A stretch of 64,000 bases of DNA. Source: Elioraea rosea (GTDB lineage: Bacteria; Pseudomonadota; Alphaproteobacteria; Acetobacterales; Acetobacteraceae). The DNA lies in assembly GCF_007644105.1 (NCBI RefSeq), contig NZ_VFAC01000006.1, positions 62,001 through 126,000 on the forward strand, read 5' to 3'. Position 1 is the first letter of the stretch. Each line of letters begins with the position of its first letter. Positions 15,918-18,107 of this stretch are shown here, one piece after another. The translations under genes were made by a program, and so were the position numbers. Below the pieces are notes generated by a model. That model had not been told where the DNA came from, did no database searches, and saw only the letters and a list, made by a program, of their open reading frames with translations.

Positions 15918-17030
15918 CTACCTCAGCACCCCGATCGTTTTCGCCTTTACGAGATCCCAGTCGATCTCCGCGCCAACGCCTGGGCGCTCGAACGCGTCGA
16001 TCGTGACGGTGCCGTCGGGCTCGATCTCGATGTCGTGCACGAGGCCGAATTTCTGCGCCCCGTCAGGCAGGAGCACCTCGAAGTACCGCGCGTTCGGCAG
16101 CGCCATCATGAGCTGGAGCTGCGCGACGTTGTTCCAGGAATTGCCGCCATGGTGCACCTCGAAGGTGGTGGCGAAGGCCTCCGCCAGATGCGCCGCCTTG
16201 TGGAGCGGCGTGAGCCCGCCCTTCACCGCGATGTCGCCGCGCAGATAGTCAGTCGCGCCCCGCACCAGCCATTGCGTGAACGCCTCGAACCCGCCCGAGC
16301 TGTACTCGGTGGCGAGGATCGGGATGTCGAGCTTCCGGCGCAGCGTGACATAGTTCTCGATGTCGTCCTCGCCGAGCGGGTCCTCGTACCATTCGAAGCC
16401 GAGCTCCTCGAGGACGCGGCCGAGCCGCATCGCCTCGGGCAGCCTGTGCATCATCATCGTGTCGATCATCAACGTCATCTCCGGCGCGGCGCGGCGCACG
16501 GCACGGCAGAGCGAGATCGTCGCCTCGACGTCTGCGGGCGGGTGGAGCTTGTAGGCGCGGAAGCCGCGCGCGCGCACCTCCTCGAGCTGCGCGAGATAGG
16601 CCGCCTCGTCCCCGAGCGAGCCGGAGCTCGCATAGGCCGGGATACGCCTACGGAACGAGCCGATCATCTGGTGGATCGGCAGGCCCGCCACCTTGCCGCC
16701 AAGGTCCCACAGCGCGGTGTCGAGCGCGCCGATGACGCGGTAGGTGACGCCGCGGCGCGCCTTGTTCATCGCCTGCCACAGCGCCTCGCGCGCGAGCGGG
16801 TCCTGCCCCATCAGCCGGGGCTTCAGGCTCTCGACAAGCATCGTGGCGTCGAGATGCGCGGGCCGGAACGAGGCGCCGAGGAAGGAATGGCCGGTGATGC
16901 AGGCATCGGTCTCGATCGCGACGACGCCGATGTCGCTCCGCCCCACGGTCGCCGGATTGGCGGTGCCGTAGCGCACTGCCGGAATGTTCTCCCATGCGAC
17001 CATGGTGACCGTGATGTCGGTGATGCGCAT
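15918..17030 (-). CDS. Enolase superfamily (mandelate racemase/muconate lactonizing) enzyme
   Basis: A 370-aa soluble enzyme with an N-terminal capping domain and a beta-barrel. Metal ligands fit D190 (LMIDTMMM), E216 (WYEDPLGEDD) and E242 (ILATEYSSGG); the dyad is probably D266 (RGDIAVKGG) with H293 or H294 (EVHHGG). The first catalytic motif reads K161-L-H163 rather than the K-x-K of many racemases, suggesting a sugar-acid dehydratase or similar (inference). I start it at ATG 17030, preceded on the minus strand by GGAGGAA. It is divergent from a Bug-type binding protein across a perfect palindrome, so uptake and catabolism are probably co-regulated. Confidence 0.88.
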   Translation of the reverse strand: MRITDITVTMVAWENIPAVRYGTANPATVGRSDIGVVAIETDACITGHSFLGASFRPAHLDATMLVESLKPRLMGQDPLAREALWQAMNKARRGVTYRVIGALDTALWDLGGKVAGLPIHQMIGSFRRRIPAYASSGSLGDEAAYLAQLEEVRARGFRAYKLHPPADVEATISLCRAVRRAAPEMTLMIDTMMMHRLPEAMRLGRVLEELGFEWYEDPLGEDDIENYVTLRRKLDIPILATEYSSGGFEAFTQWLVRGATDYLRGDIAVKGGLTPLHKAAHLAEAFATTFEVHHGGNSWNNVAQLQLMMALPNARYFEVLLPDGAQKFGLVHDIEIEPDGTVTIDAFERPGVGAEIDWDLVKAKTIGVLR

Positions 17031-17083
17031 CCGTCGTTCCTCCCGTTTCGTGGCGCGCATGCTCGGGGCGCATGGCGGCACCG

Positions 17084-17102
17084 GTCAACCCGCGGGGTTG
17101 AC
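17084..17102. promoter_or_regulatory. Perfect 19-bp palindromic operator candidate
   Basis: GTCAACCC-GCG-GGGTTGAC is a perfect 8-bp inverted repeat around a three-base centre, placed in the 126-bp region between the enolase-superfamily gene and the Bug gene. It overlaps a TTGACG (17098-17103) that could be the -35 element of the rightward gene, although a good -10 is not visible. Symmetry and size fit a GntR-, LacI- or LysR-type dimer site. The regulator gene is not in the window. Confidence 0.55.
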
Positions 17103-17156
17103 GCACCATCCATGCGGCGGGAACGTCGCTGCAACGACACGAAGAGGGAGGAAGCA

Positions 17157-18107
17157 ATGCGCCGCATCGTCATCGCGCTCGCGCTCGGCCTCGGGTTCGC
17201 CCACGCTGCGCAGGCGGAATGGCCCGAACAGCCCGTCCGCATCGTCGTGCCGGCCGCACCTGGCGGGCCGACCGACATCGCCGCGCGGCTGCTCGGCCAG
17301 TATCTCGCCCCACGCCTCGGCCAGCCCGTCGTGATCGAGAACCGGCCGGGAGCTGGCGGCAACATCGGCACCCAGGCCGTCGCCTCCGCAGCACCGGACG
17401 GCTACATGCTGCTGATGGCGAGCTTCTCCAACGCCGCCAACCCGGCGCTGTTCGAGCGCCTTCCCTACGACACGCGGCGCGACCTCGTTGCCGTGAGCCA
17501 GGTCACGCATGTGCCGGTGATCCTCACCGTGCCCGCCGCGTCGCCGGCGAAGACGCTCGGCGAGCTCGTGACGCTCGCGAAATCGGGCAATCTCACCTAC
17601 GGGACGGGCGGCGTCGGCACCTCGAGCCACCTGATCGCGGAGCTGTTCAACCGTGCGGTGGGCATCACCGTTCCGGTCGCGCATTATCGCGGGGCTGCGC
17701 CGGCGAACCAGGACCTCGTTGCCGGCCGCGTCTCCTACCTGTTCGACAACCCGCAGACGGCGCTGCCGCTCCTCTCCGCCAACCGCACGCGCGCACTGGC
17801 CGTGACGACGGCGGAAAGGCTTCCAGAGCTGCCGGACGTGCCGACGCTGTCGGAGACGGTCCAGCCCGGCCTGGTCGTCACCTCCTGGCACGGCATCATG
17901 GCGCGGGCAGGAACGCCCGAGCCGGTGCTCGCGCGGCTTGCCCGCGACATCGCCGCGGCGACCCGCGACCCCGAGGCGGCTTCGCGCTGGAAGGAGCTCG
18001 GCGTCCAGCCCGTCGGCTCGTCCCGCCAGGAGTTCGCTGCCTTCTTCGAGGCGGAGCTGGACCGCTGGGCGCGCGTGGTGCGCGAGGCCAACATCAAGGT
18101 CGAGTAG
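17157..18107 (+). CDS. Bug/TctC-family tripartite tricarboxylate transporter binding protein
   Basis: A 316-aa periplasmic receptor with an N-terminal signal peptide (cleavage near AAQAEW). Typical Bug sequence follows: WPEQPVRIVVPAAPGGPTDIAAR, VVIENRPGAGGNIGTQAVA, PDGYMLLM, the LTYGTGGVGTSSHL turn and HYRGAAPANQDLVAGRV. ATG 17157 follows a GGGAGGAAG site. No TctA/TctB membrane genes are nearby, as is common for Bug proteins, which often serve a distant transporter or sensor. Divergent pairing with the enolase-superfamily enzyme suggests an organic or sugar acid ligand. Confidence 0.92.
   Translation: MRRIVIALALGLGFAHAAQAEWPEQPVRIVVPAAPGGPTDIAARLLGQYLAPRLGQPVVIENRPGAGGNIGTQAVASAAPDGYMLLMASFSNAANPALFERLPYDTRRDLVAVSQVTHVPVILTVPAASPAKTLGELVTLAKSGNLTYGTGGVGTSSHLIAELFNRAVGITVPVAHYRGAAPANQDLVAGRVSYLFDNPQTALPLLSANRTRALAVTTAERLPELPDVPTLSETVQPGLVVTSWHGIMARAGTPEPVLARLARDIAAATRDPEAASRWKELGVQPVGSSRQEFAAFFEAELDRWARVVREANIKVE

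Follow-up and report, generated by a model that had tools for sequence, protein, structure and literature searches.

A chance-level inverted repeat between divergent enolase-superfamily and Bug receptor genes of Elioraea rosea, and a probable -35 element in its right arm

The window analysed here is the whole stretch of 64,000 nucleotides of Elioraea rosea DNA, and within it two genes diverge across a gap of 126 bp. The gene on the minus strand (15918..17030) encodes a 370 aa protein of the enolase superfamily (MR_MLE), with Pfam matches to MR_MLE_N (52.6 bits against a cut-off of 22) and MR_MLE_C (150 bits against 29.4). The gene on the plus strand (17157..18107) encodes a 316 aa Bug/TctC periplasmic solute-binding protein (Pfam TctC, 222 bits against a cut-off of 27). 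The original prediction, a divergent pair of an enolase-superfamily enzyme and a Bug receptor, is thus borne out in outline, both families being clear from Pfam. The enzyme had also been called a dehydratase, and this was not established: no NCBIfam equivalog cut-off was reached, and the best match was to L-talarate/galactarate dehydratase (109 bits against 500). In terms of its superfamily, the protein has both Pfam domains above cut-off but stays below the NCBIfam equivalog cut-offs of all named dehydratases among the matches listed. Its best-scoring solved relatives (4hcd, 1rvk and 4mmw) are called isomerase or lactonizing enzymes. Solved relatives of the receptor include Bug27 and BugD; compared with these it is a clear TctC protein, and apart from its arrangement the gene pair has no specific feature.

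Pfam scans of the pair and of three neighbouring proteins (an arginyltransferase, a penicillin-amidase-family protein and a glyoxalase-family protein) identified no recognised regulator among them. The genome encodes 55 TctC genes; the MR_MLE genes that exceed the cut-off number 15, a 16th match below it being excluded. Seven of these 15 have a TctC gene no more than 5 kb away, and 11.6% of the genome is that close to one (binomial 0.0008); when genes are counted as clusters the figure is 5 of 13 (P = 0.012). Three of the seven share a cluster on C1. A functional link of enolase-type enzymes with Bug receptors is therefore likely; their clustering favours one shared compound and is silent on any regulator. 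It had been proposed that one regulator controls uptake and conversion of the same acid: a tie between enzyme and receptor is supported, but a shared dimeric regulator is not.

On the plus strand, positions 17084..17102 of the divergent gap read GTCAACCC-GCG-GGGTTGAC, an inverted repeat that has no strand of its own. The feature had been described as a perfect 19-bp palindrome. The repeat exists and its arms are perfect over 8 bp, but the 3-nt GCG centre is non-self-complementary (the opposite strand of the string shows three mismatches, all within the centre), hence an 8+3+8 form. Longer symmetry about the same centre was sought by repeat search, which found the 8-bp arms only, and an extended symmetry was rejected. 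The reported overlap with a -35 candidate was confirmed: TTGACG lies at 17098..17103 on the plus strand, with one of its bases outside the right arm and the others within it.

An inverted repeat that lies in a divergent gap and over a -35 element is a typical form of operator, bound by a dimeric regulator at divergent catabolic promoters. The repeat resembles such operators in these same respects, and a dimeric regulator that binds both arms could control both genes. Consistent with this, the repeat is situated midway in the 126-bp gap, the two genes plausibly serve one function and the arms match exactly along their 8 bp.

Although real, the repeat is ordinary, and its symmetry is not beyond chance. 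A count of distinct inverted repeats whose arms pair perfectly over 8 bp or more, with spacers of 0-12, gives 42 for the window, and Markov models of this sequence (70.6% G+C), each represented by 8 simulated sequences, give means of 41.75 (order-1) and 44 (order-2). When the bases of 17034-17156 were shuffled, such a repeat arose in 721 of 20000 shuffles (3.6%), a figure for this single stretch in which the other intergenic stretches of the 64 kb are uncounted. An expectation of 0.02 applies to this exact string and is no test of symmetry, because the string was chosen after being seen.

A scan of GTDB, covering close relatives, returned one comparable locus, that of a sister Elioraea species (NZ_JALHPR010000042.1). 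The same divergent pair is present there, with the same gene order around it (identities are 89% for the arginyltransferase, 94% for the enolase-type protein, 93% for the Bug protein and 79% for the glyoxalase). The corresponding site reads GCCGACCATGTCGGTTGAC, which is identical to that of E. rosea at 5/8 positions of the left arm, 0/3 of the centre and 7/8 of the right arm; in the remainder of the gap, 72 of 98 ungapped columns are identical. Five of the eight arm pairs are kept in the sister, with no compensatory change. Random placement of 3 + 1 substitutions leaves 4 to 6 pairs, and therefore these two sequences give no sign of selection keeping the symmetry. Lack of conservation in orthologous regions had been named as the outcome that would speak against a shared site, and this is what we observe, in one ortholog: the two half-sites are not both kept and the symmetry is lost. 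The TTGAC of the right arm is retained in the sister. The alignment has a 10-base identical run over GGTTGACGCA, which is of usual length (9741 of 20000 shuffles reach 10).

Further copies of the repeat were sought in the genome (4.49 Mb, 95 contigs), in the family and upstream of Bug genes. A genome-wide search found the exact arms at this one site, so that scattered random occurrences, the other outcome that had been named as speaking against a regulator site, are not seen. With up to three mismatches allowed, 7 places match, and a reversed control matches 3; five of the seven were inspected, and the sole place at two mismatches lies beneath long open frames. Among 397 family genomes (a draw from a larger group), the exact arms are found in one, E. 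rosea itself, and the reversed control is likewise found in one of the 397. A genome-wide operator family was thus rejected.

Upstream regions of Bug genes were compared in two sets. The first consists of 30 regions from three Elioraea genomes (those of 35 matches for which loci were available, the other five being moved to the second set), and the second of 38 further regions from E. rosea (40, minus L057, whose gene was in the first set, and L081, which had no usable start). Together they cover 49 of the 55 TctC genes of E. rosea, 11 in the first set and 38 in the second. Only the region under study comes within three mismatches of the repeat in the first set, where the sister ortholog and one other region are at 4 mismatches and the remainder at 5 or more; in the second set none is within three mismatches and the best is at 5. 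With its own site excepted, 0 of 68 Bug upstream regions fall within three mismatches, and an operator common to Bug genes was rejected. Copies at co-regulated genes were not found, although a regulator with a single site would need none.

More distant relatives of the enzyme place Bug genes differently. With at most 5 candidates scored per genome, the enolase-superfamily protein was identified at E <=1e-130 in 3 of the 397 genomes: E. rosea, the sister and one further genome (G408), at 60% identity. In G408 (L054 7111-10419), a Bug gene (42% identical) is convergent with the 59-60% enzyme relative, and its upstream stretch is not comparable because of this orientation. The Bug gene is followed there by another gene similar to the enzyme (30%), and this second arrangement of the pair likewise favours one compound for enzyme and receptor. 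Six more homologue regions at 47-53% identity, between 10.6 and 13 kb long, were compared: one includes Bug genes, which are non-adjacent, and in the other five no Bug gene was found at E 1e-5. Upstream of a distant enolase homologue (L009), a long inverted repeat with about 50 bases per arm was seen by eye and is perhaps a dispersed repeat element. A Bug-like match in the third Elioraea genome (G002:C1:1760617-1761570) has an internal TAG stop.

The right arm can be read as part of a promoter of the Bug gene. The candidate -35 element, TTGACG, is followed on the plus strand after 17 nt by a candidate -10 element, GAACGT (17121..17126), and 30 nt separate the latter from the ATG of the Bug gene. 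In the sister the sequence is TTGACG-N17-AACCAT, followed by 29 nt; this keeps the -35 element unchanged and in place, the same spacing, and A2 and T6 of the -10 hexamer, in the one ortholog available. A spacing of 17 nt would suit a sigma70 promoter (16-18 nt), but a standard sigma70 scan of the gap returned no promoter, as GAACGT is a poor -10 hexamer and too weak for such a scan.

We counted TTGACG-N-NANNNT genome-wide at spacers of 14, 17 and 20, which share one codon phase. Spacer 17 has 22 sites (the site in the window being one of them), spacer 20 has 56 and spacer 14 has 59; reversed-pattern controls give 29, 23 and 27 at spacers 17, 20 and 14, so that the total of 22 at spacer 17 is not above its control of 29. 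What distinguishes spacer 17 is where the sites lie. With sites classified by simple codon-model gene calls with crude starts, 13 of the 22 are at most 150 nt upstream of a start on the same strand (14 of 22 are intergenic), against 4 of 56 at spacer 20 (13 of 56 intergenic) and 1 of the first 40 of the 59 sites, in list order, at spacer 14 (6 of 40 intergenic). For placement upstream of starts, the Fisher P for spacer 17 is 3e-6 against spacer 20 and 7e-7 against spacer 14. The preference persists among intergenic sites alone, where 13 of 14 at spacer 17 but 4 of 13 at spacer 20 are upstream of a start (P = 0.0013). Intergenic counts as such are alike (14 and 13), and the contrast lies in the place beside starts and in fewer coding matches.

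Coding matches number 8 at spacer 17 and 43 at spacer 20. At spacer 20 or 14 the pattern is some 2.5 times as frequent as at spacer 17, and what spacer 17 lacks are sites in coding sequence, a distribution that would arise if genes were cleared of promoter-like pairs.

Spacers were also counted in 253 kb of Elioraea DNA, a set that includes the E. rosea and sister sites and in which Bug loci are abundant. Among pairs of TTGACG with NANNNT, spacer 17 is the most frequent there (7 of 84), and every other spacer from 8 to 35 has at most 3. When the base that follows TTGAC is left free, the same 253 kb shows no peak at spacer 17 (8 of 150, compared with 9 at spacer 32 and 8 at spacer 29). Upstream of Bug genes, TTGAC occurs in the sense direction in 8 of the 30 regions of the first set and in the antisense direction in 1; the excess is not repeated in the 38 others (3 sense, 2 antisense). 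Enrichment of TTGAC at Bug genes was accordingly dropped as proof of a -35 element (8/30, then 3/38).

The spacing results agree with a sigma70-type promoter whose -10 hexamer is weak. According to PMC2873474, sRNA start sites of S. meliloti carry CTTGAC-N17-CTATAT. Compared with this alphaproteobacterial sigma70 promoter, the candidate is similar in TTGAC, in a near-identical spacing and in A2 and T6 of the -10 hexamer, but differs in that G, not C, precedes TTGAC and that GAACGT bears little resemblance to CTATAT or TATAAT. A limited literature search found no promoter study for the genus Elioraea.

The left arm offers a mirror image of this arrangement. On the minus strand, TTGACC (17083..17088) is a possible, weak -35 element directed towards the enolase-superfamily gene, with an equally weak possible -10 element, GAGCAT (17059..17064), 18 nt after it. 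The sister reads TCGGCC at the former position and has no NANNNT hexamer at spacers 15-19. Because of this, a leftward -35 element, if any, would be peculiar to E. rosea of the two species, and chance is a simpler reading of the left arm than a second -35 element.

We conclude, with a probability of roughly 0.62, that the right arm is the -35 element of a sigma70-type promoter of the Bug gene, that its mirror image on the left is probably accidental and that the pair of arms is no conserved regulator site. The predicted promoter would point to the right, towards the Bug gene, with TTGACG, a spacer of 17 nt, GAACGT and then 30 nt to the ATG, and transcription would start from it. The left arm may do nothing in particular, or it could act as a weak mirror -35 element for the enzyme gene, in E. 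rosea only.

Of the alternatives, binding of a dimeric regulator to both arms survives best, and we regard it as unlikely. The site might be recent, or the regulator might have changed in this lineage, and either would explain why the site is not seen in the sister. Position over the -35 element, exact arms and the probable common function of the two genes all suit such an operator, but dimeric-regulator operators differ from what we find here: the scanned proteins include no regulator, there is no convincing second site in the genome or at other Bug genes, and the symmetry, at chance level to begin with, is lost in the sister. The original prediction of a dimeric regulator site thus received no support from the search for a second copy or from the only ortholog found; as a lineage-specific single site, a dimeric operator is possible.

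Slightly less probable is that the repeat consists of back-to-back -35 boxes, each arm providing TTGAC for one of two divergent promoters (TTGACG-N17-GAACGT to the right and TTGACC-N18-GAGCAT to the left). Both hexamer pairs are present at near-canonical spacing and both genes begin about 30 bases beyond the supposed -10 boxes, but the leftward pair is missing in the sister. An extension of this idea, which we consider doubtful, is that the repeat forms a compact two-way core promoter whose arms would compete for RNA polymerase and so tie expression of receptor and enzyme together without a dedicated regulator; it would have arisen in E. rosea from a one-way form still present in the sister. 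That neither arm matters, repeat and TTGACG both being accidental, is very improbable: the chance-level symmetry, the usual length of the conserved run and the unrepeated excess of TTGAC at Bug genes would agree with it, but the spacing-specific preference of TTGACG-N17-NANNNT for positions upstream of starts and the TTGACG-N17 counterpart in the sister argue against it.

The locus illustrates that, in a genome rich in G+C, even a palindrome that catches the eye can be at chance level. If the regulator reading were true, the site would provide a handle on the ligand of the Bug receptor. For the genus Elioraea, our results indicate that a spacing-controlled count can recover the form of a promoter.
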